Below, one piece after another: positions 2,354 to 22,323 of a stretch of 33,609 nt of DNA (positions are counted from its first letter, which is position 1; each line of letters starts with the position of its first letter). Source of the stretch: Acidobacteriaceae bacterium (GTDB lineage: Bacteria; Acidobacteriota; Terriglobia; Terriglobales; Acidobacteriaceae); NCBI GenBank assembly GCA_025462925.1, contig JAOAPL010000080.1, positions 1-33,609 of the forward strand. Reading direction: 5' to 3'. The notes below the pieces were generated by a model. It worked only from the letters and a program-made list of their open reading frames with translations, did no database searches and had not been told where the DNA came from. Position numbers and translations under genes: made by a program.

Positions 2354-3274
2354 CTAAGAAGACACGGCGACGACTACTGAATGAGCACTTTTATAAACCC
2401 CAAGCGTCAGAGCTTCGTATTGATTAAAGAATGTCTCAAAGTGAAAGAGGTGACGCAGGCCACTATCGTCCTGCAGTTGTAAATCCGTCGCTCCAAGCGG
2501 ACCGCCTTTACGATTTGCGCAGTAGGTCTGCACTTGACGAAAGAGATCGACTTCGCGAGTGTTAGAAAACCGTTGCTGGAAAGATCGCGACCCGACGAAA
2601 TACCGAAATGGATTGCCCCAATCGAATTCTGCCGGAAGGCGATGAGGATGACAGCAAATGGCTCCTATCATGGGCTGTTCGCTTTGCTCGACGTAACGCC
2701 ACAGGGTGGTGGTGATCGTGTTTCCGTATCTCTTTTTCAATGTCGTGACGGCGTTAATCCCGACAGTTAGGTCTCGTGCGTTTTGAACAAATGCCTGTTG
2801 AAAGAACAGCATCTGCCCAGCAGCAAAGTTAGCCTCGTTTTCGATTTGCTCGTGGCAGGCAGGCGTCAGGGTTTGTTTGTTGTCGCCCAGCATCGTATCG
2901 ATGTGCCACGGGATGATGCTGTGACCGACTTCGTGGGCTTCGCTCCATCGCTGTTTGGCCTCGGGAAGTTCGCTGTCAATCAGTATTCGCTTTCGGTCTG
3001 GGATGAAGAGCGCCCGGAGATCCCACTTCTTAATGACATCGAGGAGCAAGGCTGGTCGAGCCAGTACCTGTTTACCCGCTATTGTCAGCCTGTGGGCGAC
3101 CTCTCTTAATGCGCCGTCTTCGGTAGAGGAATAGTATTGGCGGTCGAGCCGCAGCAACTCACGCACATGATCCATGTGGAGCGGCGGCTCGGGATTTCCG
3201 AGGTCGCGGAGCACCTTGGCAACTAACTCGTTGACGTCCTGCGCGGTTCGGTCACGCAAAAAGATGTTTTTCAA
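2354..3274 (-). CDS. ImmA/IrrE-family metallopeptidase
   Basis: HExxH zinc motif in RWSEAHEVGHSIIPWH, followed by ENEANFAAGQMLF, typical of ImmA/IrrE (DUF955) proteins. Confidence 0.85.
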   Translation of the reverse strand: MKNIFLRDRTAQDVNELVAKVLRDLGNPEPPLHMDHVRELLRLDRQYYSSTEDGALREVAHRLTIAGKQVLARPALLLDVIKKWDLRALFIPDRKRILIDSELPEAKQRWSEAHEVGHSIIPWHIDTMLGDNKQTLTPACHEQIENEANFAAGQMLFFQQAFVQNARDLTVGINAVTTLKKRYGNTITTTLWRYVEQSEQPMIGAICCHPHRLPAEFDWGNPFRYFVGSRSFQQRFSNTREVDLFRQVQTYCANRKGGPLGATDLQLQDDSGLRHLFHFETFFNQYEALTLGVYKSAHSVVVAVSS

Positions 3275-3290
3275 CTGCTTTCACCGCTGG

Positions 3291-3785
3291 TTATTTCTCG
3301 CTTAAGAATTTCACGAATTCCTCCAAGGCCCGTTGCTCGTCTTTGTTCAATTTTTCTACCGACTCCGAGCGTGCAGCAAATCGAACCGCCTCCTGACCGA
3401 GCGTCTGATCGCGTGCGATTACGTTGCCAGAGAGTTGAAGCATTCTTTCATTGGAAAGACCTAGGGTTCTGGCGAGCTGGTACACGGTTCGTGGTTCCGG
3501 AGTGTAATGAATGTTTCGTTCAATCTCGATCAGTTCCGCGAGGTCGATGTTAGCTTTCTCGGCAAGCTGGTCCGTCCGAAGCCCTTTTTTCCTGCGCCAC
3601 AAGTTAATGAGCTTGCCAAACGCTGGTCGAGGATCTTCGTCGGCGGCAGCATTGATAGATGCAACTTGGTGAGTACGTTGTTTCGACTTGAGTATGTCTA
3701 TGCTGAAAACACCTGCGGAGATTTCGGCTTTGTCATCCCGCTCCGCGCGCTTTGTGAGCCACTCCTTAGTGAGATTTAGTTTCAT
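3291..3785 (-). CDS. XRE-family helix-turn-helix transcriptional regulator
   Basis: FGKLINLWRRKKGLRTDQLAEKANIDLAELIEIERNIHYTPEPRTVYQLARTLGLS matches a HTH_3/XRE domain; directly upstream of the ImmA/IrrE gene. Confidence 0.85.
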   Translation of the reverse strand: MKLNLTKEWLTKRAERDDKAEISAGVFSIDILKSKQRTHQVASINAAADEDPRPAFGKLINLWRRKKGLRTDQLAEKANIDLAELIEIERNIHYTPEPRTVYQLARTLGLSNERMLQLSGNVIARDQTLGQEAVRFAARSESVEKLNKDEQRALEEFVKFLSEK

Positions 3786-3794
3786 GGTATTGCC

Positions 3795-4412
3795 TCATTT
3801 TAAGAATTCTGACGCTTGCTCAGCTGTCATTTCGAAGTAGCGGAGGTTATGGGCAGTGGTGTCGCACCCGAGGTCGGTCATTCCGCAATCGTTGGCGTAC
3901 CACCCGTCTGCCTGTGGTAGGGAATGCAATCCGATGCGGCCGGAAAATTCTTCTTGGATACTCAACTGAATCGCGGTTGCCAAGAGTATGCTTCCGACGA
4001 GTGAAAACCGCGGCTCGGTCACAATGCTGGCAAGATTCCAAGGTGCCGCAGCGAGGAAGTGGACGTAGACGAGAGACTTGCCCTTCTGTGACTCGACACG
4101 GCAGACTTTGCCGGCAGTTGAAACCAGCATCATCCCCTGCATCTCTGACGCGCACTCAATCGCAAACATTTGGTAGGCAGCGTAGCCTTCGATGGCGTCG
4201 TACTTCTGTCGCCAATCCCAGTGTCTGTGCTGGGGCAATCGCTCTTTGGGAACACCTGCCGCTTCCATGCGACGGATTTCTTTTTCCAGAAAGGGCTTCC
4301 AGGTCAATTCCGCCGCTTGGACCTCTTCCTCGGTGACGCCATCGATAAGGATCGCTTCAACCAGTGTCCCGGTTCTGCGATCCTTCAAATGGACCTGGGT
4401 GCGCTCGCTCAT
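3795..4412 (-). CDS. GNAT-like N-acetyltransferase-fold protein (putative)
   Basis: C-terminal GRIGLHSLPQADGWYANDCGMTDLGCD...LRYFEMTAEQASEFL resembles GNAT C-terminal signatures; ATGA overlap with the upstream RHH gene. Confidence 0.55.
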   Translation of the reverse strand: MSERTQVHLKDRRTGTLVEAILIDGVTEEEVQAAELTWKPFLEKEIRRMEAAGVPKERLPQHRHWDWRQKYDAIEGYAAYQMFAIECASEMQGMMLVSTAGKVCRVESQKGKSLVYVHFLAAAPWNLASIVTEPRFSLVGSILLATAIQLSIQEEFSGRIGLHSLPQADGWYANDCGMTDLGCDTTAHNLRYFEMTAEQASEFLK

Positions 4413-4627
4413 ATCATCATGAGCTCGGCTTTTTCTTTCGTGCTGTCGTGCTCGAAAAAGAGCTTTTCTCCGCGAGTAAGGCGAGCCTCCACCATCTGAT
4501 AGAGGCGCAAGGCCTGTCGTAGGACGGCAGTCTTGCTCATGTCCTTCGTGACCGACAGCTCATCCAAGGCCTTCATCTCTGCCTCGGTCAGATTCAATGT
4601 CATTGTCTTTCGTGCGGGTGTGATCAT
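4409..4627 (-). CDS. ribbon-helix-helix (CopG/DUF1778-like) small protein, antitoxin/repressor-like
   Basis: KTMTLNLTEAEMKALDELSVTKDMSKTAVLRQALRLYQMVEA: beta strand plus two helices typical of RHH proteins; first gene of the minus-strand operon. Confidence 0.7.
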   Translation of the reverse strand: MITPARKTMTLNLTEAEMKALDELSVTKDMSKTAVLRQALRLYQMVEARLTRGEKLFFEHDSTKEKAELMMI

Positions 4628-4656
4628 TGGCCCAGACCCTCCTCTCCACTAGCAAA

Positions 4657-4685
4657 ATAGTATAAAAACTGCTAGTTTTTGTCAA
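4657..4685 (-). promoter_or_regulatory. promoter for the minus operon with a palindrome in the spacer
   Basis: Reverse complement TTGACA-17 bp-TACTAT; AAAAACT-GCT-AGTTTTT palindrome at 4664-4680. Confidence 0.6.
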
Positions 4686-4696
4686 GTAAATTTACA

Positions 4697-4730
4697 TTGA
4701 CATTAGCTAAATTTACTGTAATATTTACAG
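4697..4730 (+). promoter_or_regulatory. promoter for the Ubl operon overlapped by a palindrome
   Basis: TTGACA (4697-4702), 16 bp, TAATAT (4719-4724); palindrome CTGTAA-TAT-TTACAG (4716-4730) overlaps the -10. Confidence 0.6.
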
Positions 4731-4753
4731 AAGAATAGGAGGTTCCGAGACTT

Positions 4754-5077
4754 ATGGGAACTCAAACTCCAGATCTGCGAAGCGTTGCCACCAAACCGCA
4801 GATCGTCAATATTCAGGTGGTCACCGGTTCCGGGAATTACCCGAGTTCCGGATTCGAGCACTACAACTCTCACGAACTGCTGTCCACTGTGCTGCATCAG
4901 GCGCAACAGCACCTTCATCTGCAGAACACGGCTGGGTGGGTCGCTAAGACGGAGGATGATCGAGTATTGAATCCTGCATTGACGATTGCCGAAAACAACA
5001 TTCAAGACAAGACTCAGATCTTCTGGGCGCCAACGGAGAGCGGCGGAGGCAGCTTCGATGCATCCGGAAATCAGTAA
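4754..5077 (+). CDS. ubiquitin-like (beta-grasp) modifier protein, putative
   Basis: 107 aa, SD AGGAGG; C-terminal TQIFWAPTESGGGSFDASGNQ has a glycine run near the end; first gene of an operon with E2-, JAB- and E1-like proteins. Confidence 0.65.
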   Translation: MGTQTPDLRSVATKPQIVNIQVVTGSGNYPSSGFEHYNSHELLSTVLHQAQQHLHLQNTAGWVAKTEDDRVLNPALTIAENNIQDKTQIFWAPTESGGGSFDASGNQ

Positions 5078-5537
5078 GTCGTTATTTGAGGACCAGGTTC
5101 AAAAAGTTCTCACGAATCCGGAGTTGATTGTTAATCGGGGCTGGCTGGTTCTCAAGCACTCGTATCCGAATCTCGTGGTGGCAATGCGCCATCGAAAATC
5201 CGGTCAGCTGCGTGTTTTCGGCTTCAAGTTTGATGGGTGGAATGATCAGCCGCCTTCGCTGACGCTGCTAAGGTGTGACTCGGAAGAGGAGCTGCCTCAC
5301 AGCCAGTGGCCAAAAAACCCTCAAGGAAAAACTTACTGGCATCCTGGAGGCTGGGTCTCCGAAAGCGGAATCCTTGTTCCCTCGAAACCCTTTATGTGCA
5401 TGATTGGGATTCGCGAATATCATGAGCACCAACAACACGTAAAGGATGCTTGGAAGAACTACAAAAATCAGTCCTCATATGAATTGGGTCAACTTCTGAT
5501 CCAGGTATCAGAGGTATTTCAGAAATCCGATGTCTGA
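5058..5537 (+). CDS. E2-like (ubiquitin-conjugating-enzyme-fold) protein, putative
   Basis: MHPEISKSLFEDQVQ...YPNLVVAMRHRKSGQLRVFGFKFDGWNDQPPSLTLL...WHPGGW...SKPFMCMIGIREYHEH; position between Ubl and JAB genes; overlaps the Ubl 3' end. Confidence 0.55.
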   Translation: MHPEISKSLFEDQVQKVLTNPELIVNRGWLVLKHSYPNLVVAMRHRKSGQLRVFGFKFDGWNDQPPSLTLLRCDSEEELPHSQWPKNPQGKTYWHPGGWVSESGILVPSKPFMCMIGIREYHEHQQHVKDAWKNYKNQSSYELGQLLIQVSEVFQKSDV

Positions 5538-6024
5538 CCTATCGAGTCAGTCCCTCGTCTTTCACGTGCCCCGGCAGACGGTAGACCAGTCTCTGCAATT
5601 TTTTAAGCAGCAGGGAGAAAGAGGGCACGAAGGGGTCGCGCTCTGGCCCGGAAAGCTGCTGGCGGAGGTATGTGAGATCGGCCCCGCGGTTATTCCGCGG
5701 CAGATTACTGGGCCTCGCATGTACCAGATTCCAGCTGATGAAAGCTTTCGAATCATCAAAAGCACGGCGAAGCAGAATCTGGTTATACCGATCCAGATCC
5801 ACTCGCATCCCGCATCGGCTTATCACTCAGAGGCTGACGACGAATATGCCTTCCTTCAACATTTGAACGCGATCTCAATTGTTGTGCCCTGCTTTGGGCA
5901 CTTTGATCCAGATGAGTTCCTGGAACACGCCGTGTTCTATCGCCTCCGCGGGCCAGATCTGTGGGAACTGATGGCATTGAGTGAAATTAAAAGATGCTTC
6001 GCGTTTTCTGAGGGGACCCCATGA
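5530..6024 (+). CDS. JAB/JAMM (Mov34/MPN) isopeptidase-like protein
   Basis: JAMM motif HSHPASAYHSEADD (HxH...SxxD) with an upstream Glu (GHEGVALWPGKL); ATG overlaps the E2-like stop. Confidence 0.8.
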   Translation: MSDLSSQSLVFHVPRQTVDQSLQFFKQQGERGHEGVALWPGKLLAEVCEIGPAVIPRQITGPRMYQIPADESFRIIKSTAKQNLVIPIQIHSHPASAYHSEADDEYAFLQHLNAISIVVPCFGHFDPDEFLEHAVFYRLRGPDLWELMALSEIKRCFAFSEGTP

Positions 6025-7472
6025 ACTGGATTGAACAGCACATCCGAAATCTGGCCAAGACCTCGGGATTTGAAGAAGCAGACGCGAAGAGACTATTTGT
6101 GCGGAAGCTGCATGTGTCGATTGATGTAGAACTACGGAGCAATCGGACCTACAGGCTTGCATTCATATATGCGGTCAATCTGTTGTCCAGAATCTTTCCG
6201 TCGTTAACGTTCGATGAACTGCCGGTTTCGAAGCTGCCGATCTTGCCCTGGACAGGAAGCAAGCCGTTAGGAGCGTTTGAGAATCCCGAACTGACACTAC
6301 ACTTCGGGCAAGGCTCAGCCCATGAGGCATTTGTCACTGCGAATTGTCATCGTTGGCACGTGCTAATCGATTCACCGCATACTCCCACGGCTGAAGAAGA
6401 GTGGAATCCCGTGCTTGCATTGCTCACAGCATGTTATGCGACGGGGAGGGCTTGCAAGCTGCTTTTGGGCGATGCCCTCGCGGGGAGAGGTTTCTACGAA
6501 CCGTTCTCGATTTTGGATTTTGATCGCGGTGAAGTGGAGTTCGACTGGAGCCGCGATTCGGATATCGGCCATGTAACTTCGGCGGGAATAGGTGCGATCG
6601 GCTCTGCTTTTTTGTTTGCCTTGGCCTCTCATGGAATGGCATCCGGACGGCTTTCATTGGTCGATCACGATTTACTAGACCGTCCCAATCTGTGCCGTTA
6701 CAGCTTCTTTACTGAGGAAGAGATCGGAACCATGAAGGTCCTAAGTGCGAAGCGCAGGCTCGATTCTCAAGGCATGCAACTTGAGGTCAAGCAATTTGGA
6801 CAGCGATTCGAAACATACTTTGATGAGAACTACCATCGCGATCCACGTTTCAGAGTGGAACAATTGATTTCGGCTCCCGACCGTCGCGATACTCGCCGTC
6901 GCTTTCAAGGGAAACTTCCCAGACGGCTATGGGACGCTTCGACGGGATCTAATCAGGTGGTGCTCCACCACAATGAATACGACCCAAGGCTAGCTTGCCT
7001 GACTTGTATTTACCCAGAGACTCCCGATGAGAATGCACATCTGCGGCATGTTGCGGATGCTTTGAACCTGCCTCTTGAAAGGATTTTGTCGGGTGCCAGC
7101 ATTACCACTGCGGATGCGAGCGCCATTCACAGTAAATATCCCCAATTGGCAGTCGAGGATGTAATTGGGAAGGAATTTGATAGCGTTTTCCGCCAATTGT
7201 GCTCGGCGAGTGAGATAAGAACTGGCGCGAGCCAGTCGGTGCTTGCGCCTTTATCGTTCGTCTCTGCCATTGCCGGAGTTCTCTTGTACTTCGAGTTCAT
7301 CAAGTCGCTTAACCCTGAGGTGTTTGGCTCGTTCCAGTTGTATAACTACACCTATCTTGACCCTTTGACCAATCCGAATCCCAGCTTTCGGCGGCTGAAG
7401 AATCGTAGCTCAGATTGCGTCTGCGCGGACCCGAGATATCGAAAAGTATTTGCGGACATCTGGCACCAATGA
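6021..7472 (+). CDS. ThiF/E1-like ubiquitin-activating-type enzyme
   Basis: Rossmann motif VTSAGIGAIGSAFLFALASHGMASGRLSLVDHDLLDRPNLCRYSFF; CxxC pairs CLTC and CVC (zinc-site-like); ATGA overlap with the JAB gene. Confidence 0.85.
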   Translation: MNWIEQHIRNLAKTSGFEEADAKRLFVRKLHVSIDVELRSNRTYRLAFIYAVNLLSRIFPSLTFDELPVSKLPILPWTGSKPLGAFENPELTLHFGQGSAHEAFVTANCHRWHVLIDSPHTPTAEEEWNPVLALLTACYATGRACKLLLGDALAGRGFYEPFSILDFDRGEVEFDWSRDSDIGHVTSAGIGAIGSAFLFALASHGMASGRLSLVDHDLLDRPNLCRYSFFTEEEIGTMKVLSAKRRLDSQGMQLEVKQFGQRFETYFDENYHRDPRFRVEQLISAPDRRDTRRRFQGKLPRRLWDASTGSNQVVLHHNEYDPRLACLTCIYPETPDENAHLRHVADALNLPLERILSGASITTADASAIHSKYPQLAVEDVIGKEFDSVFRQLCSASEIRTGASQSVLAPLSFVSAIAGVLLYFEFIKSLNPEVFGSFQLYNYTYLDPLTNPNPSFRRLKNRSSDCVCADPRYRKVFADIWHQ

Positions 7473-8346: not shown

Positions 8347-10707
8347 ATGCCTCTAAACGAAGCCGACACATGCCGGACGTATGTCCTCCCAAGACTGTAC
8401 AGCGCTGGCTGGGAAGACACGCAGATCAGTGAGCAGAAAAGCTTCACTGATGGCCGCATCGTGGTCGTCGGCAATCGCGCGATTCGTCGTCCTCAGAAGC
8501 GTGCGGACTATCTGCTCCGGTACCGCAGGGACTTTCCTATTGCTGTCGTCGAGGCGAAGGCAGTCTACAGAACCGCGGGCAATGGTCTCCAGCAGGCTAA
8601 GGAATATGCGCAGATTCTTGGGCTGAAGTTCGCTTATGCGACAAACGGCCACAGCATCATCGAGCACGATTTCCTCACCGGCCTGGACAACGAAATCCAG
8701 AATTTTCCGAAGCCTTCCGAGCTGTGGGACAGGCTGCGGGCCGCTGAAAATATCTCGGAGAGCGTAGGAGAACGCCTGCTCACGCCCTACTATCATCTCT
8801 CCGGAAAATCGCCGCGCTACTACCAAGAGATAGCTATCAATGGCGCGGTACAAGCCATTCTGCAGGGCAAGAAACGCGTGCTCCTCACGCTTGCAACAGG
8901 GACCGGCAAAACAGTTGTCGCATTTCAAGTTTGCTGGAAGCTCACGAATTCGCGATGGAACCGCGTCGGTGAGTATCGTCGTCCGCGCATCCTTTATCTG
9001 GCAGATCGCAATATTCTTATCGACGACCCGAAGGATAAGATTTTCGCGCCCTTCGGCGAGGCGAGGCACAAGATCGAAGGGGAAGCGATCAAGAGCCGCG
9101 AGATGTATTTCGCAATTTATCAGGCCCTTGCCAAAGACGAACGTCGGCCGGGTCTGTATCGTGAATACCCGCGAGACTTTTTCGACCTCATCGTTGTTGA
9201 CGAATGCCACAGAGGCAGCGCGCGTGACGAGAGCAACTGGCGCGAGATCCTAGAGTATTTTGAGCCCGCTTTCCAGCTCGGGATGACTGCCACTCCTTTG
9301 CGCGAAGATAACCGCGACACGTATCGCTACTTTCACAATCCGCTTTATATCTATAGCCTGCGCCAAGGCATCGATGACGGATTCCTAGCACCCTACCGCG
9401 TACACCGCATCGTTTCGACGGTTGATGCAGCCGGATGGCGGCCGACGCCGGGCGAAGTTGATAGGTATGGCCGTGAGATTCCAGACAGCGTGTACGGAAC
9501 CCCGGACTTCGACAGACTGATCGCGCTCAAATCCCGCACGGAGGCGATTGCCCGCAACTTAACGGATTTTCTCAAGAAATCTGATCGTTTCGCGAAGACC
9601 ATTGTCTTTTGCGTGGACCAAGAACACGCGGAGGAGATGCGACGCGTACTGAACAACTGCAACGCGGATCTGGTGATGCAATATCCTGACTACGTGGCGC
9701 GGGTCGTTTCCGACGAAGGCGATATAGGGCGCTCGCATCTCGGCCGCTTCATGGAGCTGGAAACCACGACGCCCGCGATCCTCACGACATCGCAGATGCT
9801 CACTACCGGAGTTGATGTACCGACCTGCAAGAACGTGGTCATCGTCCGAACCATTAATTCCATGACGGAATTCAAGCAGATCATCGGCCGAGGCACGCGC
9901 GTGCGTGACGACTATGGCAAGCTGTTCTTCAACATTCTGGATTACACAGGAAGTGCAACTCGTCTTTTCGCCGATCCTGACTTCGACGGCGATCCAGTGC
10001 AGGTGACCGAAGAGCAGATGGACGCAAGCGGAGAAACGATAGGCGAACCTACCGTCGTCGAGGAACAGGTGCCCGTCGAACTCGACGAGCTGCCGCCAGG
10101 AACGGGCCTCACTTTTGACGACGAAGCTCCTCCGCCGCGCAAATATTACGTCGATGCCGGCGTCGTTGAGATTGCCGCGCATCTCGTCTACGAACTCGAC
10201 GCAGACGGCAGACGACTCCAGGTTAAGAAATTTACGGAATACACCGCAGAGAGCGTGCGCAGTATGTATCCCTCCGCCGCCGAGCTGCGTACCAAATGGA
10301 GCAATGCCGCAGAGCGCGCCGCGATCATCGAGGCGCTGGAGGCGAAAGGCATATCGTTCGAGGAACTCGCGGAAGCGTCGAAACAGCCCGACGCAGATCC
10401 GTTCGACTTGCTGTGCCATGTCGCTTATAGTGCGCCCATCCGAAGCCGCCGCGAGAGGGCAGAGGCGGCGCGCAATGGAGGTAAGGCATTTTTTGACAAA
10501 TTCACGAACGGGGCACGGGACGTGTTGAATGAATTGCTGGAGAAATATGTCGAATTCGGGACAGCGCAGTTCCAGATACCTGACGTACTAAAAGTACCGC
10601 CGATATCCCGGCATGGGAATGTCATTGAAATCGCCGATTTCTTCGGTGGACCTGATCAGCTGCGGCACGCGGTCGGGGAACTTCAGAAACTTCTTTACAC
10701 GGCGTAA
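8347..10707 (+). CDS. hsdR: type I restriction enzyme, R (endonuclease/translocase) subunit
   Basis: N-terminal nuclease-like AVVEAKA; Walker A LATGTGKT; DECH box VVDECHRGSARDESNW; MTATPLRED; TTGVDVPTCKNVVIVRTINSMTEFKQIIGRGTRVRDDYGK (SF2 motifs V/VI); followed by hsdM and hsdS. Confidence 0.95.
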   Translation: MPLNEADTCRTYVLPRLYSAGWEDTQISEQKSFTDGRIVVVGNRAIRRPQKRADYLLRYRRDFPIAVVEAKAVYRTAGNGLQQAKEYAQILGLKFAYATNGHSIIEHDFLTGLDNEIQNFPKPSELWDRLRAAENISESVGERLLTPYYHLSGKSPRYYQEIAINGAVQAILQGKKRVLLTLATGTGKTVVAFQVCWKLTNSRWNRVGEYRRPRILYLADRNILIDDPKDKIFAPFGEARHKIEGEAIKSREMYFAIYQALAKDERRPGLYREYPRDFFDLIVVDECHRGSARDESNWREILEYFEPAFQLGMTATPLREDNRDTYRYFHNPLYIYSLRQGIDDGFLAPYRVHRIVSTVDAAGWRPTPGEVDRYGREIPDSVYGTPDFDRLIALKSRTEAIARNLTDFLKKSDRFAKTIVFCVDQEHAEEMRRVLNNCNADLVMQYPDYVARVVSDEGDIGRSHLGRFMELETTTPAILTTSQMLTTGVDVPTCKNVVIVRTINSMTEFKQIIGRGTRVRDDYGKLFFNILDYTGSATRLFADPDFDGDPVQVTEEQMDASGETIGEPTVVEEQVPVELDELPPGTGLTFDDEAPPPRKYYVDAGVVEIAAHLVYELDADGRRLQVKKFTEYTAESVRSMYPSAAELRTKWSNAAERAAIIEALEAKGISFEELAEASKQPDADPFDLLCHVAYSAPIRSRRERAEAARNGGKAFFDKFTNGARDVLNELLEKYVEFGTAQFQIPDVLKVPPISRHGNVIEIADFFGGPDQLRHAVGELQKLLYTA

Positions 10708-10716
10708 GAGGGGACC

Positions 10717-12270
10717 ATGGCAATGACGGCAGCGGCTCGCAGGACAGAAGCGCCAAAATCGACGGCACATCAGCTCGGCAGCATCATCAAGGCTTGTCGA
10801 GACATTATGCGCAAGGACAAGGGGCTCAACGGGGACATTGACCGCCTGCCGATGCTGACCTGGATCATGTTCCTGAAATTCCTCGACGACATGGAGCAAG
10901 TACGCCAGGCAGAAGCAAAACTTGCAGGCAAACGCTACCACTCCACCATCGAATCGCCTTATCGCTGGCGGGACTGGGCGGCGAAGCCCGAAGGTGTCAC
11001 CGGCCCGGAACTGATCGCGTTCATCAATCAGGATGAAGCGATGCGCCCGGATGGGAAGAGAGGGCCAGGGCTGTTTGCCTATTTACGCTCCCTGGAGAGT
11101 CTGAACGGCGACCGGCGAGACGTGGTTGCGCGCGTGTTTCAAGGTACCATCAACCGCATGGTGAACGGCTACCTGCTGCGGGATGTCATCAACCGCGTGA
11201 ATGATATTCATTTCACGTCGAAGGACGAGATCCACACGCTGGGCCATATGTATGAAACCATGCTCCGCGAGATGCGGGATGCCGCAGGCGACTCCGGCGA
11301 ATTCTACACGCCGCGCTCGCTCGTGAAATTCATCATCACCGTCGTAGACCCGAGGCTCGGTGAAACAATTCTTGATCCTGCCGCCGGCACCGGGGGATTT
11401 CTGGTCGAAGCCTTCGAGCACTTGCGGGGACAAGCAAAACGCGCGCAAGACTATGACCGCCTGCAGCACGGTACCCTTCAAGGAATTGAAGCAAAGCCCC
11501 TGCCGTACTTGCTCTGCGAGATGAATCTCCTGCTCCACGGCATGGAGTATCCGGAGATTGATTCAGGCAACGCTCTACGCTTTCCGCTTCGGGAGATCGG
11601 TGACAGGGATCGCGTCGATGTCATTGTGACCAATCCGCCGTTTGGCGGCGAGGAGGAGCGGGGAATTCTATCAAATTTCCCCGAGGACAAGCAGACCGCA
11701 GAAACCGCGCTCCTCTATTTGCAACTCATCATGCGCAAACTCAGACGCTCGGTCGGCGGGGTACGCGCCGGACGCTGCGGCATGGTCGTCCCCAACGGGC
11801 TTCTGTCAGGTGACGGAATATCGGCTCGCATCAAGGAAGAGCTGATAAAGGAATTTAATCTTCACACAATCGTCCGGCTTCCCAACGGCGTATTTTCTCC
11901 TTACACTCCGATTCCTACAAATCTGCTTTTCTTTGACCGCTCTGGACGCACAAAAGACGTGTGGTACTACGAACATCCTCTTCCGGAGGGCAAGAAGAAT
12001 TACACGAAAACGGCCCCGCTCCAATTTGAGGAATTCAAGGAGTGCCTTACATGGTGGAGGAAGCGTGAGGAGAATGATCGCGCGTGGAAAGTTGGGGCCA
12101 AGGATCTGCTTGCCACCGGGTGTAATCTTGATCGCAAAAACCCCAGTGCGAAGGAAGACATAACTCATCTTCCACCCCAGCAACTGGCGGAAAGCATCGT
12201 GCTAAAGCAGCAGAAGATCGCAGAAATCATGAGTGAAATCAAAACTCTACTCGGAGATGACCGAGCATGA
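10717..12270 (+). CDS. hsdM: type I restriction-modification system, M (N6-adenine methyltransferase) subunit
   Basis: DPAAGTGGFLVEAFEHL (motif I), VIVTNPPFGGEEE (NPPF motif IV), GEFYTPRSLVKFI. Confidence 0.95.
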   Translation: MAMTAAARRTEAPKSTAHQLGSIIKACRDIMRKDKGLNGDIDRLPMLTWIMFLKFLDDMEQVRQAEAKLAGKRYHSTIESPYRWRDWAAKPEGVTGPELIAFINQDEAMRPDGKRGPGLFAYLRSLESLNGDRRDVVARVFQGTINRMVNGYLLRDVINRVNDIHFTSKDEIHTLGHMYETMLREMRDAAGDSGEFYTPRSLVKFIITVVDPRLGETILDPAAGTGGFLVEAFEHLRGQAKRAQDYDRLQHGTLQGIEAKPLPYLLCEMNLLLHGMEYPEIDSGNALRFPLREIGDRDRVDVIVTNPPFGGEEERGILSNFPEDKQTAETALLYLQLIMRKLRRSVGGVRAGRCGMVVPNGLLSGDGISARIKEELIKEFNLHTIVRLPNGVFSPYTPIPTNLLFFDRSGRTKDVWYYEHPLPEGKKNYTKTAPLQFEEFKECLTWWRKREENDRAWKVGAKDLLATGCNLDRKNPSAKEDITHLPPQQLAESIVLKQQKIAEIMSEIKTLLGDDRA

Positions 12271-13520
12271 GCACTCCTTGGCCGGACACTCCTTTCGGCG
12301 ACTTTCTGAAACCGAACAAGCGCCCTTACACCCTCGGTCCAAACCAAGACGCCAACCTCGTGGGCATGCGCTGGTATGGGGATGGGCCATTTCACCGTGA
12401 ATTGAAGGCTGCGATGAAGATTGCCAAGAAGACGCATTTCGTCATCAAAGCAGGGGATGTCATCTACAACAAACTCTTTGCTTGGAAGGGTAGTTTTGGC
12501 GTGGTTCCTCCGGCACTCGATGGCATGTTCGTGTCCGACAAGTTTCCGACGTATGAGTTGGACCGGAGCAAGGTAGACGAGAACTGGCTACGCTGGTTTT
12601 TCCGTTGGCCGCCGCTTTGGGAGCAGGCCAGGACAATGTCCAAGGGCTCTGCTGCGCTTTCCAAGCTCACGCTGAACCCGCCGAAGTTTCTACTTCTAAA
12701 AATGCCGCTTCCCCACATCGACGAACAGCGGGGACTTGCAGCCAGGCTGGACGGACTTGCCGCTAAGACTGAGGAAGCTCGCGGTCTTCAGGACCAAGCA
12801 CTGATTGAGTCCGCCAATTTATTGAAGACGGCCCTGCGTCGCATCGCGACCAAGGTCAACGCGACGGGCCAGCTAGGACAAGTCCTTACCGGAAAGCCTC
12901 GCAACGGATGGTCCGCGAAATGCGACAACGCTAACAACGGCATTTCGGTCCTGTCACTTGGGGCGGTAACGGGGTTTCGTTATCGAGCTACGGAGTTCAA
13001 GAAAACGTCGCTCCACGCCGACAAGGACGGACATTTTTGGCTGAAGCCCGGCGATCTGCTAATTACGCGTAGTAACACACCTGAACTTGTTGGACACGCT
13101 GCGATCTATAGCGGCAGTCCGTCCCCTTGCATCTACCCCGACCTCATGATGCGGCTTCCGTTGACTCTGGATCATGTAGACCCTACGTTTGTGTGGTACT
13201 GGCTGCAGTCTCCGCCCGCACGAGATTTCATATTCGGGAAGGCCAAAGGAACCAGTTCCACGATGAAGAAAATCTCGCAAGGTGTCGTCATGGCGATTCC
13301 TTTCCCCACGCACCTTAGCTTGCACGAGCAGCGCCGCATCGTCGCCGAGTTGGACCGGCTGCAAACTGAAGCGGATTCTCTGAAGACTCTCCAAGCCGAG
13401 ACTGGAACGGAACTCCGCGCCCTCATGCCGTCGATTGTTTCGAGGGCGTTCACCGGCCAGCTTGCCGGAGTTGGTACCCTCACAAACGTGGACGAATCAA
13501 CCGTTGACACTGCAGTGTAA
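12267..13520 (+). CDS. hsdS: type I restriction-modification system, S (specificity) subunit
   Basis: Two TRD-like halves, each ending in conserved coiled segments (LPHIDEQRGLAARLDGLAAKTEEA; HLSLHEQRRIVAELDRLQTEADSL); ATGA overlap with hsdM. Confidence 0.9.
   Translation: MSTPWPDTPFGDFLKPNKRPYTLGPNQDANLVGMRWYGDGPFHRELKAAMKIAKKTHFVIKAGDVIYNKLFAWKGSFGVVPPALDGMFVSDKFPTYELDRSKVDENWLRWFFRWPPLWEQARTMSKGSAALSKLTLNPPKFLLLKMPLPHIDEQRGLAARLDGLAAKTEEARGLQDQALIESANLLKTALRRIATKVNATGQLGQVLTGKPRNGWSAKCDNANNGISVLSLGAVTGFRYRATEFKKTSLHADKDGHFWLKPGDLLITRSNTPELVGHAAIYSGSPSPCIYPDLMMRLPLTLDHVDPTFVWYWLQSPPARDFIFGKAKGTSSTMKKISQGVVMAIPFPTHLSLHEQRRIVAELDRLQTEADSLKTLQAETGTELRALMPSIVSRAFTGQLAGVGTLTNVDESTVDTAV
13507..13518. 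promoter_or_regulatory. palindromic putative operator ACACTGCAGTGT upstream of the XRE (CapH-like) gene
   Basis: Perfect 12-bp palindrome inside hsdS codons, next to TTGACA (13504-13509) and 22 bp before the ATG. Confidence 0.55.
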
Positions 13521-13539: not shown

Positions 13540-13896
13540 ATGGAAGGCCTCGGACCATTCATGCGCCGCCGTCGAGACGAGCTGGATCTTTCGCTCCGGG
13601 AATTTGCGAAACGGCTCGATTGTTCCGCGGCCTTTGTCTCGGACATCGAACTCGGGCGCCGGAATCCCTCAGAGAAAGTCCTGGCCGAGATTGCCCGCGT
13701 CCTCGACGTAAAGTTGGAAGAACTCCAGGCAATGGATGTGCGGCCGCCCATAGACGATATTAAGCGGCTGACACAGAACGATCCGCGATTTGCCCTGGCG
13801 TTTCGGACGATGATCGACAAAAAGGTCAGCGCAGACGAACTGCTGGCCCTTGCCAATCAAAAAAAAGGGGAAAGACACCCGAAGCATAAGAAATGA
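13540..13896 (+). CDS. capH: XRE-family HTH repressor, CapH-like
   Basis: MEGLGPFMRRRRDELDLSLREFAKRLDCSAAFVSDIELGRRNPSEKVLAEIARVLDV: clear HTH; paired with an ImmA/IrrE gene upstream of CBASS. Confidence 0.8.
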   Translation: MEGLGPFMRRRRDELDLSLREFAKRLDCSAAFVSDIELGRRNPSEKVLAEIARVLDVKLEELQAMDVRPPIDDIKRLTQNDPRFALAFRTMIDKKVSADELLALANQKKGERHPKHKK

Positions 13897-14594
13897 AAAT
13901 CTTCCGCACCAAATCCGGCCCATTCGCCGAACGCCCGCACTTTGAACCCAGCGAGATAGACCGGGTTTGCGCTGACGAGCTGCGGAAAGAGAGCCTCTAC
14001 CCCAGTTCACCGGAAGCCATACGCATCGACCGATTTGTCGAGAAGCGTTTTGGCGTCGTGCCCCAGTACGAAGACCTGCCTGACGGCGTGCTGGGATTTA
14101 CCAAATTCACCAAGAAGGGCGTTGAGGCCATAGTTATTGCGATAGCGCTCGATTCCGAAAGAGGCAAGGTGGCCGAGCGCCGCGTCAGGACCACACTCGC
14201 GCATGAGGCCGGGCATGGGCTACTGCACGCCTACCTGTTCGCGCGCGACGAGAAATCCCTCCATCTCTTCGATGCTGATAGCCATTCGGATCACAAGATT
14301 CTCTGCCGAGATGTCCAGGGCGACGAACGTAAAAGCCGGACCTACGATGGCCGCTGGTGGGAGTTTCAGGCGAACCGGGCGATGGGCGGCCTCCTCTGTC
14401 CCTGGACACTGGTGCAGGACGCGCTGAAATCGTTTCTCGTCCCGAGCGGTTCCTTGGGTGTAGTGACCCTCGACGAAAAACGCCGGGAAGAGGCGACGCG
14501 CACGCTGGCTGACATCTTCGACGTGAACCCGATCGTCGCGAAAATCCGGATCACCGAGCTATACCCCGCGGAGACGGGGCAACTCAGGCTGTAG
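13893..14594 (+). CDS. capP: ImmA/IrrE-family metallopeptidase, CapP-like
   Basis: TLAHEAGHGLLHAYL (HExxH); ATGA overlap with the HTH gene; directly upstream of the CBASS operon. Confidence 0.8.
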   Translation: MKIFRTKSGPFAERPHFEPSEIDRVCADELRKESLYPSSPEAIRIDRFVEKRFGVVPQYEDLPDGVLGFTKFTKKGVEAIVIAIALDSERGKVAERRVRTTLAHEAGHGLLHAYLFARDEKSLHLFDADSHSDHKILCRDVQGDERKSRTYDGRWWEFQANRAMGGLLCPWTLVQDALKSFLVPSGSLGVVTLDEKRREEATRTLADIFDVNPIVAKIRITELYPAETGQLRL

Positions 14595-14692: not shown

Positions 14693-15652
14693 ATGGAACT
14701 CACAGACACCCAGCTTAATTATTTCGTCAACAACCGACTCAAACTGCCAAAAGGCAAACGTGCCGACTATCTCGCCCAGGTGGACCACCTCATTGAAAGA
14801 TTCTCCGCTGCTGCGGACGGCGACAAGGTTATCAACATCAAGAAGTTCCTGAAGACGGGCTCGCTGCGCAAGGGTACCGTGCTCCGCCCGAGGGGCGACT
14901 TCGGCGTAGATGCCGACGTGGCGGTCTTCCTGAACGCCAACGGGGCTTCCCAATACGATCTCGCCAACCTTCATGACCGTATCCGGAAACTCCTGGTAAA
15001 GATCTACCCCACCAAAGAGCCCGAAGACTTCACTGTCCAGCCGCGGACGCTCGGGATTGAATTTCTGGACTCCGGTCTCGAAATGGATCTCGTGCCGCTC
15101 GTCGTCATAGACGGGCCTGGCGACTACGGATGGCAGCCGTCGTCACGCGGCGACGCGCCCGTCAAAACCAGCGTGGCGAAGCAGCTGGAATTCATCCGCG
15201 CCAGGAAGGATTCCTATGCAAATTTCACAGCGCTCGTACGTTTGCTCAAGTCCTGGCGGAATTTCCATGACTTGGACGAGAGTTTCCGGTCCTTCACGAT
15301 AGAGCTGATTGTCAGCCACCTGCAGGATACTGAAGGGGCACCAGCCTCACTGGAGGCCGGACTTCTGCGGTTTTTCCTCTACGTGGCAGATTCGCAGCTC
15401 AAGACCCCGATCTGCTTCAAGGAATGCGGCACGCCGAAGACCCTCCCGAAAGATCGGGTGGTAATTTTCGATCCATGCAATGCTGACAACAATGTTGCCC
15501 GGAAAATTACGGACCAGGACTGCAAGGCGATCGTTGAGAAGTGTCTTAATGCGTGGGAAACGCTCACTTATGCGCGCAATTACGATGGCAAAACGCAGAC
15601 GCTGGAACTCTGGAAGGAAATATTCGGCCGGTCATTTGTAATCGAGGAGTAA
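14693..15652 (+). CDS. cdn: CBASS CD-NTase (oligonucleotide cyclase)
   Basis: GSLRKGTVLRPRGDFGVDADVAVFL (GS...DxD active site) and later LEMDLVPLV (third Asp); followed by HORMA and TRIP13-like genes. Confidence 0.9.
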   Translation: MELTDTQLNYFVNNRLKLPKGKRADYLAQVDHLIERFSAAADGDKVINIKKFLKTGSLRKGTVLRPRGDFGVDADVAVFLNANGASQYDLANLHDRIRKLLVKIYPTKEPEDFTVQPRTLGIEFLDSGLEMDLVPLVVIDGPGDYGWQPSSRGDAPVKTSVAKQLEFIRARKDSYANFTALVRLLKSWRNFHDLDESFRSFTIELIVSHLQDTEGAPASLEAGLLRFFLYVADSQLKTPICFKECGTPKTLPKDRVVIFDPCNADNNVARKITDQDCKAIVEKCLNAWETLTYARNYDGKTQTLELWKEIFGRSFVIEE

Positions 15653-15655
15653 GGC

Positions 15656-16159
15656 ATGTCTTATTCGGAATCATTGACGGAAACCTACAGCGTAGCCGAC
15701 ATCGGCAAGGTGATCGACTGCGTCGCGGCCGATCTGGATATGAATTCACAATCCACCGGGCTTTTGACGCGCGACCAGGTGAAGAACTATGCGGCGGATG
15801 TCAAAGCGCTGGCCCAAAAGGGCTACCTCGTCGAGGCGAACATCGTCCTGTACGATGCGTCCGGCAAGCCGATCCACGCCGCGAAATACGAAGTGTCCAC
15901 CGATGCTTCGACGCTCACCGCCCAGCGTCCCGGTAATAACCGCTGGCCGCGCACGCCGTCGGGCCAGTTGAATATAGTGGTGCAGTATAGCCAGAAGTGG
16001 CGCAATTTAACGGACACGCAGCGAGCGGCATTCAAGCAAACCTTGAGCACAGGGTGGACGACGTCGAACACGGATCTGTCATTTCCCACCTTGACGCGGT
16101 CGGCCGACCGCAATTACGTCAGCAACGGCTGGGGAGTGACCAAGAGCGTGTATGCGTAA
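15656..16159 (+). CDS. cap7: bacterial HORMA-domain protein (Cap7-like)
   Basis: MSYSESLTETYSVADIGKVIDCVAADLDMNSQSTGLLTRDQV... matches the start of bacterial HORMA proteins; lies between CD-NTase and TRIP13-like ATPase. Confidence 0.8.
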   Translation: MSYSESLTETYSVADIGKVIDCVAADLDMNSQSTGLLTRDQVKNYAADVKALAQKGYLVEANIVLYDASGKPIHAAKYEVSTDASTLTAQRPGNNRWPRTPSGQLNIVVQYSQKWRNLTDTQRAAFKQTLSTGWTTSNTDLSFPTLTRSADRNYVSNGWGVTKSVYA

Positions 16160-16183
16160 CTCAAACCGGGAAGTAGGTAGTCG

Positions 16184-17089
16184 ATGAGCGAAGTTAAGGA
16201 AATCGCCGAGCTGTTTGAACTGGAGTTGGATCTCCCGAACGCCGGCATCGCTGCGTCGGCGAAGAGGCTGGTCGGTTTTGAGAATCGTTACCAGAAACTG
16301 CACCGGGCGCTCCGCCTGCTGGCTGATCCGGAGGAGCTGCGCGCATGGAGCCGGAAATATCATCACCAGGAACTCGCCGTCTGCTCTGCTGTATCGGACA
16401 GGTATCCCCTGGTTATCTTCGCGGGCGATGTCGGCACCGGAAAGACGGTCACGGCCGAAGGCGCGTGTGACAGACTGGCTCGCGACGCCCGCAAGGAGGC
16501 GATGCTCTTCAAACTCAGCACGCGCGTCCGTGGATCGGGCAAGGTCGGTCAGATGAGCACGCTTCTCAACCAGGCGTTCGATGTCGTCGCCAAGCAGGCC
16601 GGAAAGACCCGGCAGGCCTTCCTCATCATCGACGAGGGCGACTCGCTTGCGTCCACGCGGGACACGGTGCAAAGCCACCATGAGGACAAAGTGGCGGTCA
16701 ACACCATCATCCAGAAAGTCGATGATCTTCGCCGCCATTCCGGCCGGATCCTGGTATTTCTCTGCACCAACAGGGCAGGGGCGCTGGACCCCGCCATTGT
16801 TCGCCGTGCGGCCGTCAGCGAGCAGTTCGACCGTCCGACCGATCAGGAACGGGAAGAGCTGTTCCGTATGGATCTCGGCGGCCTGACTATTAAAGACCAG
16901 ACGCTGCGTGAGTTGGTACGTCTCACCGGCCCGCGAGATGGGCGTCCGGGCCTTACTTTTTCGGACTTGCGCTCGAAGCTTTTGCCAGACGCGCTTTGCC
17001 GCGCATTCCCGAGCCGGGGGCTGACCGAAGACGACTTGATCGCTGCGGCGAAGGAAGTGCGGCCGTCTCCTGTGGTGGGAAACGGATGA
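16184..17089 (+). CDS. cap6: AAA+ ATPase, TRIP13/Pch2-like (Cap6)
   Basis: Walker A FAGDVGTGKTVTAE, Walker B AFLIIDEGDSLA, FLCTNRAGALDPAIVRRA sensor/arginine-finger region; operon context. Confidence 0.9.
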   Translation: MSEVKEIAELFELELDLPNAGIAASAKRLVGFENRYQKLHRALRLLADPEELRAWSRKYHHQELAVCSAVSDRYPLVIFAGDVGTGKTVTAEGACDRLARDARKEAMLFKLSTRVRGSGKVGQMSTLLNQAFDVVAKQAGKTRQAFLIIDEGDSLASTRDTVQSHHEDKVAVNTIIQKVDDLRRHSGRILVFLCTNRAGALDPAIVRRAAVSEQFDRPTDQEREELFRMDLGGLTIKDQTLRELVRLTGPRDGRPGLTFSDLRSKLLPDALCRAFPSRGLTEDDLIAAAKEVRPSPVVGNG

Positions 17090-18285
17090 CACCCCTGTCA
17101 TCCAGCTCCACCGCGTCAGCACTGCCTCTTCTCGGCCGCCGTATTCAGATTGCCGGTTCGGCCAGTGGGAAAACTGACCTCGCCCTCATCGGCTACGCGC
17201 ACCAGGTCGTAAGCAATCTGGTGAAGGGCGTAATGGCCTCCGGCGGCGGAATCGTAGTCGGTATCGGACGGGAACCTCGCTCGGATGGCTCAGCACCGGA
17301 TGCCCCGAGCTTACTGTTCGATTGGACGGCACTTGAGACAGCTGCTGAGTGCCTGAAACTCGGATTTCCTGCTTGGCCTGCGGAGTCAGGCCTACCCATA
17401 GTTGTCGCCTCTTCCGAGAAGGCGGTAACGGAGATTCCGGACAACCGTTTTCCTCTGTATGAAGAGTTGTTGAGGAGCGGCCTGCTTCACGTTGAGTCGA
17501 TAATGGCCGGCTCCCGTGCCGCTGCTTTTCTGCGCCAGCGCCAGGCGATATTTGGCGAAGCATTAGTCATTCTCGGCGGCGGCACCGGCGTTGAGCATTC
17601 CGCCGATCTATACCTGTCGCGACGAAAGCCGGTGCTGCCACTTGATTTGGCGCTCGGCGCCAGCAGGGACGACGGCACCGGCGGCGCGATGCGCCTGGCG
17701 AAGGAAGCTAGAGCGGAACCTGCCAGATTCTTCCACTTCAACTCCGCTTATGCAAACACGGAGGGCGCGGCGCTCGCAGAAATCGCCACGCGAAACGGCG
17801 CTGCGTCGGCGTCCGATGTCGCGAACCGGACGGTAAGCCTGCTCGCTAAGATTGCGCGTCCCGCTGCATTTTACGTGCGGCTTCTCAATCCCGACCATCC
17901 AAAATTCAAGATAGTCGAGTCGTTTTTCCGTGATGTCGTCGATCCTGTCGTTGATGAAGCCGGAATGCGCCGCATCGAAATGGGTGCCGACAAGAACGAG
18001 TATGCTTTCATGAACGTAGCCATTTTCGAGAGCGTGCACTTCTCCTCGGTAGCCATCGTCGATGTAACCGGCGAACGGCCGAACTGTTTCATCGAACTCG
18101 GCTACGCTCTGCGTGGAGGCCGCGTCCTTGTCACGGCAGAGGACGGGACCAAGCTTCCGTTTGACCAGGAAATGATACCGTGTCACTTCTGGAAGGCCGG
18201 CGACTCCGTTGCCGACAGGAAAAAGGCCTTGGTTGATTTTTGGGAAAAGAATATCAACAGACCGCCAATTGTGAAGATGGCTTAA
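17086..18285 (+). CDS. candidate CBASS effector: SLOG/STALD-like N-terminal domain + nucleoside 2-deoxyribosyltransferase/TIR-like C-terminal domain
   Basis: N-term ISGSASGKTDLALIGYAHQ...GGGIVVGIGREP...ALVILGGGTGVEHSADLYLSRRKPVLPLDLAL (SLOG-like); C-term AFMNVAIFESVHFSSVAIVDVTGERPNCFIELGYALRGGRVLVTAEDGTKLPFDQ (NDT/TIR-like). ATGA overlap with cap6. Confidence 0.6.
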   Translation: MTPLSSSSTASALPLLGRRIQIAGSASGKTDLALIGYAHQVVSNLVKGVMASGGGIVVGIGREPRSDGSAPDAPSLLFDWTALETAAECLKLGFPAWPAESGLPIVVASSEKAVTEIPDNRFPLYEELLRSGLLHVESIMAGSRAAAFLRQRQAIFGEALVILGGGTGVEHSADLYLSRRKPVLPLDLALGASRDDGTGGAMRLAKEARAEPARFFHFNSAYANTEGAALAEIATRNGAASASDVANRTVSLLAKIARPAAFYVRLLNPDHPKFKIVESFFRDVVDPVVDEAGMRRIEMGADKNEYAFMNVAIFESVHFSSVAIVDVTGERPNCFIELGYALRGGRVLVTAEDGTKLPFDQEMIPCHFWKAGDSVADRKKALVDFWEKNINRPPIVKMA

Positions 18286-20179: not shown

Positions 20180-20962
20180 TCACCTGTCTGAGAAGGGAAT
20201 ACTCACACCAGCGAACGCGAGCACGTGTTCGGCGTTGCCTGTGACGATACGTTTCATCTCTTCGACAGGCAAATTGCGTAACTGCGCGAGCCGCGAGATC
20301 ATTGCCGTTACATCCCGAGGCTCGCTTTTCCGATTTTCGATTTCGGTAAAGGGCGCGTCGGTCTCCGTCAGGAGACGGTCGGCGGGCAGGCTTTTAATCA
20401 GCGATATACCGGAGTCGGCGGAGAGCATCCGATGGTTAATCGAGAAATAACAGCCGAATCTTGCGGCTTCGACTGCTGTAGCGACGCTGTCGGAGAACCA
20501 GTGCAGAATCGGCAGGACCCGCTCGGGCGTGGTGTGCTCCACAAGAGACGCGAGCACTTCGCGGCCCGCGCGCCGGCTGTGAATGGTCAGCACACGGGCG
20601 CCCAGCGTTTGCGCCGACTGAAGCACACGGGAAAACACCTCCTTCTGAATCGGAAGTGTTCTGCGGTGCGGAGGACTGCCGTCCAGTCCGACCTCGCCGA
20701 CAAAAGGCGACTCGGCCATGAGTTGTTCCACTAGGGCGATTTCGGCACGCCGCTGGTCAGCCAATTCAGGGTGTAGCCCGATCGCGGGAATCACGAAATT
20801 ACTGCGTTTGGTCCAGCGCCGGTTCTGCGTCCACGCCTTGGGTGTCGTCGTGACCGCCAGCGTCACAATATGGTTGCGATCACAATCCGCAATCAGCGCC
20901 GCCGGATCGGGAAACAGATCGACGTGGCAGTGAAAATCAAATCCGTTCACAACGATCGTCAT
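20180..20962 (-). CDS. qatD: TatD-family metal-dependent hydrolase (QatD-like)
   Basis: FDFHCHVDLFPD (HxH), FVGEVGLDG, LTIHSRRAGREV, LLTETDAPF; last gene of a qatABCD-order operon. Confidence 0.88.
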   Translation of the reverse strand: MTIVVNGFDFHCHVDLFPDPAALIADCDRNHIVTLAVTTTPKAWTQNRRWTKRSNFVIPAIGLHPELADQRRAEIALVEQLMAESPFVGEVGLDGSPPHRRTLPIQKEVFSRVLQSAQTLGARVLTIHSRRAGREVLASLVEHTTPERVLPILHWFSDSVATAVEAARFGCYFSINHRMLSADSGISLIKSLPADRLLTETDAPFTEIENRKSEPRDVTAMISRLAQLRNLPVEEMKRIVTGNAEHVLAFAGVSIPFSDR

Positions 20963-22323
20963 TCTGGACCCACCACGGCCCGGCCGGTGACACGGTCGAC
21001 TTCCTCGATTCCCCGCCTGAAGACGTCTGCAAACTTCGCGACTTCGTCCGCGGTGTAATCAGACAGTGGGCCGGACTTGTGAACGAGGATCTTTTCAAGG
21101 CCGGGCCGCCGCTTCAGTCGCCGCGCCATCATCTGGAAAGACCGAACGTGCTCGCCCTCGGCGGCTTTTGAATTCAGTTTCCGGGCGTGAAGGTCGGCAA
21201 TCGTGTATGTCGTCGGGTCCTTGCGGAACGCGGATGTCATGGCCGAGCGCCTGATCAGGCACGGCACACAGAAACCGCAGTGGCCAGGCTCTGCGCCGAG
21301 CCATCGCGCCTTCGTGACCGAGGAGCAGGAGATCGTGTCGACCGCGTGCTCGCGCACGATGTCCTGGTTCTTGCACTCCGCGAGCATCTCACCCTTAGTC
21401 TTGAACCGGTACGGGTTCTCGAGTCTGGCGGCGATTCCCAGCGCATCCAGAATCTCCTGCCATCGCGCCATATAGAACGGGTGCGTCGTGCGCGTGCTCC
21501 ACGCGCCCACGCGCAAGCGATCGAGCGGAACATTGAGCGAGATCAGGCCGTTCTCGGGAACGTAGATGATGGGATTCTTGTCCAGGCCGCTGGCGGCGAG
21601 CGCTGCGAGCGCGAAGAACAGGAACGACCGCCCGCGCGTAGTGAACTCGTTACCCATTGCGTGCGAGAAGTCGTTTTTGTCGAACCGGACATTTGCGCGA
21701 ACGTGGCGCGTGCGAATGTCGCCATATACCTTCGCAATCTGATCCGCGCAGCGTTCCTGTGAGCTCGTGCTGTTGTCGCCGTAGTGACTGACGAGAATCG
21801 GCTTCTTGCTTGTAGCGAACAGATCGATGGCGCCGATGAAGCTGTCGAGTCCGCCTGAGAAGAGACACACCGAGGTGAACGGCGGACGGACGAGCGCGCT
21901 TGGTTTCTGGATCAGGGTCTTGTATTTCAGGTGCCGTTCACGGACTAAAAGCCGCCAGTGGTCGCCGGTTAGGAATTTCAGCGTGCGCACGATTAGTGGC
22001 GCAAGCGCCTCCCAGCGGGCGGGATCATCGACCGGCAGATAGAGATCGATTTCACGCGTCCAGCCGTCCTGCGCGTCAGTGACGCGCGAGATGCGTGTAT
22101 CTGCGGCCGTGATTGCGGCCGCGAGGATTCCGAGGTCCGCCGCCGGCTCTGAAGGCACAACCCCACGCTGGATCAACTGGTCAATAATCTGGCCGAGACC
22201 AAACCCGAGGCGACTGTAGCCGTCGATGAAGCGGATTTCCGTCAAGAGGGAGTCCGCCTGCAGGACCTTCACAGGTGCTTTATCGGCCGGGCCGAGCCGC
22301 GCGATGATGCTGTGGCGTCTCAT
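20959..22323 (-). CDS. qatC: QueC-like ATPase/PP-loop protein (QatC-like)
   Basis: PP-loop SVCLFSGGLDSFIGAIDL; cysteine cluster HCGFCVPCLIRR; start chosen at 22323 (MRRHSIIARL) for an ATGA overlap with qatB. Confidence 0.88.
   Translation of the reverse strand: MRRHSIIARLGPADKAPVKVLQADSLLTEIRFIDGYSRLGFGLGQIIDQLIQRGVVPSEPAADLGILAAAITAADTRISRVTDAQDGWTREIDLYLPVDDPARWEALAPLIVRTLKFLTGDHWRLLVRERHLKYKTLIQKPSALVRPPFTSVCLFSGGLDSFIGAIDLFATSKKPILVSHYGDNSTSSQERCADQIAKVYGDIRTRHVRANVRFDKNDFSHAMGNEFTTRGRSFLFFALAALAASGLDKNPIIYVPENGLISLNVPLDRLRVGAWSTRTTHPFYMARWQEILDALGIAARLENPYRFKTKGEMLAECKNQDIVREHAVDTISCSSVTKARWLGAEPGHCGFCVPCLIRRSAMTSAFRKDPTTYTIADLHARKLNSKAAEGEHVRSFQMMARRLKRRPGLEKILVHKSGPLSDYTADEVAKFADVFRRGIEEVDRVTGRAVVGPE

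Follow-up and report, generated by a model that had tools for sequence, protein, structure and literature searches.

The locus analysed here lies in an Acidobacteriaceae bacterium (GCA_025462925.1, a draft genome of 79% completeness and 6% contamination) on contig JAOAPL010000080.1, and the window referred to below is the whole 33,609-nt stretch of that contig. At positions 4754-7472, where the initial annotation had described four overlapping genes on one strand, we find four intact plus-strand genes in which every start overlaps the preceding stop:

4754-5077, plus strand: ubiquitin-like protein (Ubl, BilA-like), 107 aa, single beta-grasp domain, tail ESGGG-SFDASGNQ
5058-5537, plus strand: E2 (BilB-like), 159 aa, CEHH motif C114/E120/H122/H127
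5530-6024, plus strand: JAMM protease (BilC-like), 164 aa, E34/H91/H93/S100/D103
6021-7472, plus strand: E1 (BilD-like), 483 aa, N-terminal half plus ThiF domain, C394 and C326/C329/C466/C468

The ATG of the E2 gene at 5058 falls inside the tail codons of the Ubl gene and gives the 159-aa product. This E2 matched Pfam Metal_CEHH (38.4 bits against a cut-off of 25; 1.2e-9) and the PADLOC BilB model (2.6e-7), and its best PDB sequence match was BilB (8tyz_C, 4.9e-6). Its motif, spaced C114-x5-E120-x-H122-x4-H127, aligns with the active-site residues of BilB, which are C138, E144, H146 and H151 (PMC11354881). Residue conservation was counted over 42 E1, 39 E2 and 42 JAMM alignment rows; C114 is kept in 39/39, E120 in 36/39 and H127 in 38/39 of the E2 rows. 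The initial annotation had described an E2-like protein without an obvious canonical active site, a doubt that is not upheld because the CEHH residues of the Bil E2 are present and near-invariant in relatives.

The JAMM protein exceeded the Prok-JAB cut-off (26.4 bits against 25; 6.5e-6), was matched by PADLOC BilC and had BilC (8tyx_B, 1.4e-16) as its best PDB sequence match, with metal ligands E34, H91 and H93 kept in all 42 rows. For the E1, Pfam ThiF scored 61.1 bits (cut-off 28.1; 1.1e-16), BilD (8tyz_A, 1.2e-17) was the only PDB sequence match at E <= 1e-5, and PADLOC BilD also matched, outscored by several E1-E2 fusion models. C394 aligns with C417, the thioester cysteine of BilD (PMC11354881), and is kept in 40 of 42 rows, while the N-terminal half (~180 aa) can be aligned with its counterpart in other Bil-type E1s. 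Both motifs quoted earlier, HSHPASAYHSEADD in the JAMM protein and GIGAIGS in the E1, were found. The "two CxxC pairs" ascribed to the E1 need one correction: both pairs of zinc-type cysteines (C326/C329 and C466/C468) are present, the first as CLTC, but the second reads CVC, i.e. CxC. Since the Metal_CEHH, Prok-JAB and ThiF matches all pass their cut-offs and over 30 loci, in several bacterial phyla and on one haloarchaeal plasmid, have this gene order, we do not regard the four-gene operon as a chance arrangement.

The Ubl matched no family over cut-off in Pfam, PADLOC or NCBIfam, and its identity was settled by fold. Its AF2 model (pLDDT 82.7) has the beta-beta-alpha-beta-beta order; the top PDB fold match of the model was the Bil Ubl 8tyx_A (E 7.5e-5, TM (target) 0.76), and 8tyz_B, the Ubl of the E1-E2-Ubl complex, ranked fourth. 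Model and fold match thus agree on a beta-grasp protein, a point on which the initial annotation had beforehand let its reading depend, along with the nature of the E2, which matches the solved Bil E2 by sequence. They also bear out its single Ubl domain: the 107 residues form one domain in the model, and the two-Ubl feature of BilA is absent. Ubl lengths in relatives range from 85 to 272 aa, with about half, that of Rhizobium NGR234 included, near single-domain length. Because many relatives are of this length, we do not hold two Ubl domains to be defining for the wider family, in which a single domain, judged by protein length, appears to be common. Gong et al. are said to have described, in 2025, one to three beta-grasp domains in bacterial Ubls. 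The G97-G98-G99 triplet is invariant across 15 alignment rows, and SFDASGNQ is the longest post-glycine stretch among the readable tails of relatives.

Further along the window, we identified three other sets of genes with known or probable defence functions:

8347-13520, downstream of the operon: type I restriction-modification (R-M) system, HsdM by Pfam, HsdR read from the translation
14693-18285: CBASS, with genes for a CD-NTase-like protein, a bacterial HORMA protein and a Cap17-like effector; the SMODS match is just below cut-off
20180-25129: probable Qat system, with KAP NTPase, unnamed 295-aa protein, QueC-like and TatD DNase genes in Qat order

A 301-aa plus-strand ORF (16184-17089) sits at the position expected for the Trip13-like gene of CBASS, and a 233-aa ORF immediately ahead of the CBASS set (13893-14591) had no Pfam match. 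The KAP NTPase, QueC-like and TatD set is one that we take to be Qat. Judged by this gene content, the neighbourhood of the operon is a defence island, and the earlier reading of a complete Ubl conjugation and deconjugation operon within such an island is supported both by the Bil matches of all four proteins and by the R-M, CBASS and Qat-like neighbours.

The order Ubl-E2-JAMM-E1 is that of the Bil operon, and we consider that the window operon very probably specifies a Bil-type conjugation pathway, as predicted from its sequence. It represents a known kind of operon in diverged form. With the BilABCD system (structures 8tyx-8tz0; Ensifer) it shares gene order, CEHH E2, E1 catalytic cysteine, JAMM ligands and a beta-grasp Ubl with a post-glycine tail; it differs in having a single Ubl domain where BilA is described with two, an E2 of 159 aa compared with 204 in the solved chain, the tail GGG-SFDASGNQ, an E1 at most 30% identical to any relative, and a regulatory cassette of its own. 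By analogy with Bil, we infer antiphage activity and protein conjugation for the operon. A third operon type typified by Rhizobium NGR234 was described previously (Iyer et al. 2006, PMC1779556; Table 1, row 6c); the NGR234 operon has the same four genes and a small Ubl of single-domain size, but it belongs to the other main E1 clade and lacks the cassette.

The same gene order also occurs on rhizobial, bradyrhizobial and haloarchaeal plasmids, and a scan of genome contigs recovered 37 loci in Pseudomonadota, Acidobacteriota, Bacteroidota, Myxococcota, Verrucomicrobiota, Marinimicrobia and Bacillota. Within the host phylum such an operon is seldom seen: 3 of 396 genomes have an E1 match, and among 61 near relatives it was found only in the window's own genome. 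No relative of the window E1, or of the GNAT-fold protein described below, was present in the phage collection. Some plasmid and genomic copies are atypical. The operon of a haloarchaeal Natrinema zhouii plasmid (L008, 3195-5957) has an E1 without the catalytic cysteine region and an E2 without the E, H and H of CEHH. On a Bradyrhizobium barranii plasmid (L006/L036; L006 3343-4204), the Ubl ORF lacks the glycine tail and the E2 as annotated is missing its N-terminus, a pattern suggestive of a frameshift between the two. In Bradyrhizobium viridifuturi (L034, 7127-7665) the JAMM gene is divided over two ORFs and may be disrupted.

In the E1 tree, relatives fall into two groups, the classical Bil proteins and proteins whose Ubl partners have GGGG tails, and the window E1 forms a long isolated branch beside the GGGG-tail group (98/86); it is not part of the clade that holds the remaining Bil operons with a cassette. 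Because of this isolation and the low identity noted above, its partners and chemistry could have drifted. The separation of the GGGG-tail clade from the classical Bil clade, together with Ubl genes of some clade members that are annotated multiubiquitin as in Bub-like operons, led us to consider a Bub-type placement instead, which we judge unlikely, at perhaps the level of an outside chance: Bub-like operons (L059-L062 and L064) comprise multiubiquitin, E1 and DUF6527 genes with no CEHH E2 gene recognised, multiubiquitin-type Ubl and DUF6527 genes are absent from the window operon, and the window proteins match BilB, BilC and BilD models and structures. A sulfur-carrier or other metabolic pathway was likewise considered, given the resemblance of the nucleotide-binding part of the E1 to MoeB/ThiF, and is very hard to credit, as a CEHH E2 and a JAMM protease accompany the E1 throughout its relatives, the sequence matches are Bil proteins, the surroundings are defence genes and the genes examined include no sulfurtransferase or rhodanese.

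Upstream of the Bil-type operon and divergent from it, outside the coordinates of the initial annotation, lies a minus-strand cassette of four genes (2354-4627):

4409-4627, minus strand: ribbon-helix-helix (RHH, CopG-type) protein, the first cassette gene, 72 aa, Pfam RHH_1 over cut-off
3795-4412, minus strand: GNAT-fold protein, 205 aa
3291-3785, minus strand: HTH repressor, CapH-like, 164 aa, Pfam HTH_19 6e-10, PADLOC capH 1.3e-6
2354-3274, minus strand: M78 (ImmA/IrrE) metallopeptidase, CapP-like, 306 aa, HEVGH zinc motif, Pfam Peptidase_M78 over cut-off

The RHH protein is 53-61% identical to those of 7 cassette homologues. The GNAT-fold protein matched no Pfam family over cut-off; the PDB fold matches of its AF2 model (pLDDT 86) are nearly all GNAT acetyltransferases (best E 1.8e-6). 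Its acetyl-CoA motif A reads RFSLVG against a consensus of xxxGxG, and the first glycine, here a leucine, is also absent from several Acidobacteriota copies. Because of this substitution the protein may not be a working acetyltransferase. The CapH-like protein has a SinR-type HTH in the PDB search, and the peptidase matched PADLOC capP (1.1e-14) and, by profile, IrrE (3dte, 3e-5), with HExxH kept in 8/8 rows.

In the CapH+CapP system, CapP activated by ssDNA cuts the CapH repressor and thereby controls immune operons (PMC13373217). The cassette resembles this system, which acts on CBASS among other immune operons, in that adjoining HTH and ImmA/IrrE peptidase genes, matched by the capH and capP models, lie divergent from an immune operon. 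It differs in that its peptidase is IrrE-like and 306 aa long against a model of 242 positions, in the RHH and GNAT-fold genes added ahead of the pair (28/28 complete loci), and in its TRGCYA operator boxes. A literature search, in which coverage of subscription papers was limited, returned no description of the four-gene cassette, and as far as that literature shows it is an undescribed extension of CapH+CapP.

Cassette and operon stand back to back across a short region with the following features:

4628-4753: divergent promoter region between the cassette and the Ubl gene
TTGACA 4697, TAATAT 4719-4724, plus strand: promoter TTGACA-16-TAATAT, by sequence match
TTGACA 4685-4680, TACTAT ending 4657, minus strand: promoter TTGACA-17-TACTAT, by sequence match
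4704-4709: TAGCTA box, inside the plus-strand promoter
4685-4694 and 4708-4717: AGTAAATTTA/TAAATTTACT, a perfect 10-bp inverted repeat
4737: Shine-Dalgarno sequence AGGAGG

The region contains 3 matches to sigma-70-like promoters where 0.3 are expected. In the 150-bp stretches that precede the RHH genes at 23 loci, which are not phylogenetically independent, TRGCYA occurs 45 times compared with 4.5 +/- 2.1 in dinucleotide shuffles, an excess that is descriptive because the motif was picked by eye from the same sequences before counting. Many of these boxes are exactly 11 bp apart and overlap promoter-like sequence of the immune operon. The window itself has one clear TRGCYA box only, which counts against the explanation favoured below.

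Complete cassettes in this fixed order were found at 28 distinct loci, 24 of them divergent from an immune or DNA-processing operon. The neighbours are 8 Bil operons, 9 Bub-like operons, 3 CBASS, 2 other Ubl operons, 1 SbcCD-NurA set and 1 R-M system, with 4 loci lacking a clear divergent operon; these counts are not frequencies, because the loci were found with the Bil E1 or the GNAT-fold protein as query. Partners other than Bil emerged from a plasmid search with the GNAT-fold protein and from a search of the host class. Seven further Bil operons (in Dyella, Bradyrhizobium, Marinimicrobia and others) have the cassette upstream in the same order. The other partners are:

L059-L062, L064, L076, L081, L082 and L085: multiubiquitin-E1-DUF6527 (Bub-like) operons
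L063, L065 and L069: CBASS with CD-NTase, HORMA, AAA and SAVED genes
L070 8508-11321 and L083 2885-6146: another type of Ubl-E2-JAMM-E1 operon
L071 1027-8106: divergent NurA-SbcD-SbcC operon, with SbcC, SbcD, unnamed 556-aa protein and NurA genes
L072: type I R-M system

The L070 and L083 operons, both divergent from the cassette, have a Ubl tail of TGGA and an E2-like protein with a cysteine and without CEHH spacing. The SbcCD-NurA operon is possibly a DNA-end-processing defence system. More distant GNAT homologues occur without the cassette on cyanobacterial plasmids (L068).

In a tree built on the concatenated proteins of the cassettes, that of the window falls among Acidobacteriota cassettes whose neighbours are a different Ubl operon (71% identity), SbcCD-NurA and R-M. 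The other seven Bil-associated cassettes do not group with it; in their GNAT-fold and peptidase proteins they share 36-39% identity with it. Given the strongly supported branches of this tree, the Bil label must have changed at least twice. The nearest relative of the window cassette thus adjoins another kind of Ubl operon, so that cassettes and operons have been re-paired, and their combination has taken place more than once.

These observations bear on what the cassette does. By analogy with CapH+CapP, it probably controls the Bil operon, and it is most likely a portable DNA-damage-responsive repressor unit. The rival explanation separates its two halves: the RHH and GNAT-fold proteins would form a toxin-antitoxin pair guarding the accompanying immune operon, the shared operator would reflect antitoxin autoregulation, and the HTH-peptidase pair alone would control the operon. 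In known RHH-GNAT toxin-antitoxin pairs an RHH gene is followed by an overlapping GNAT gene, which is the layout seen here; one crystal structure labelled as a bacterial toxin is among the GNAT-fold matches, and boxes spaced 11 bp apart fit an RHH operator. We nevertheless find this explanation doubtful, since the GNAT family is ~205 aa long, has an extended N-terminal part and matches nothing in Pfam, its best fold matches are non-toxins, the pair accompanies the HTH and peptidase genes in one fixed order at 28 loci, and several Acidobacteriota copies have a degraded acetyl-CoA motif.

The portable repressor unit is the reading we prefer, and we lean slightly towards a broader form of it, in which the RHH, GNAT-fold, CapH-like and CapP-like proteins constitute one controller that recognises a common tandem TRGCYA code every 11 bp and is traded between unrelated immune operons, with the GNAT-fold protein adding a second input besides DNA damage. 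As for the window as a whole, we think it quite likely that a single-Ubl Bil-type pathway stands under the divergent cassette and is induced by phage DNA damage. The RHH protein, the HTH repressor or both would occupy operators that overlap both promoters and hold the operon silent. We infer induction of the cassette from CapH+CapP: DNA damage during phage infection (ssDNA) would activate the M78 peptidase, the HTH repressor would be cut and transcription released. The GNAT-fold protein, we would guess, either modulates one of the repressors or is itself kept in check by the RHH protein. Once expressed, and going by the solved Bil system, the JAMM protein would trim the eight residues SFDASGNQ after GGG(97-99), and the E1 would adenylate the exposed glycine, load the Ubl on C394 and hand it to C114 of the E2, which would attach it to target lysines; the JAMM protein may also be able to remove the Ubl from targets.

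The window operon represents a deep single-Ubl branch of Bil and is useful for asking which parts of a bacterial ubiquitin-like pathway are minimal. The cassette matters more than the operon itself. If one exchangeable switch does serve conjugation systems, CBASS, restriction and DNA-end-processing alike, induction of many defence systems would obey a single rule, one that promoter sequence would reveal and one reporter could test.
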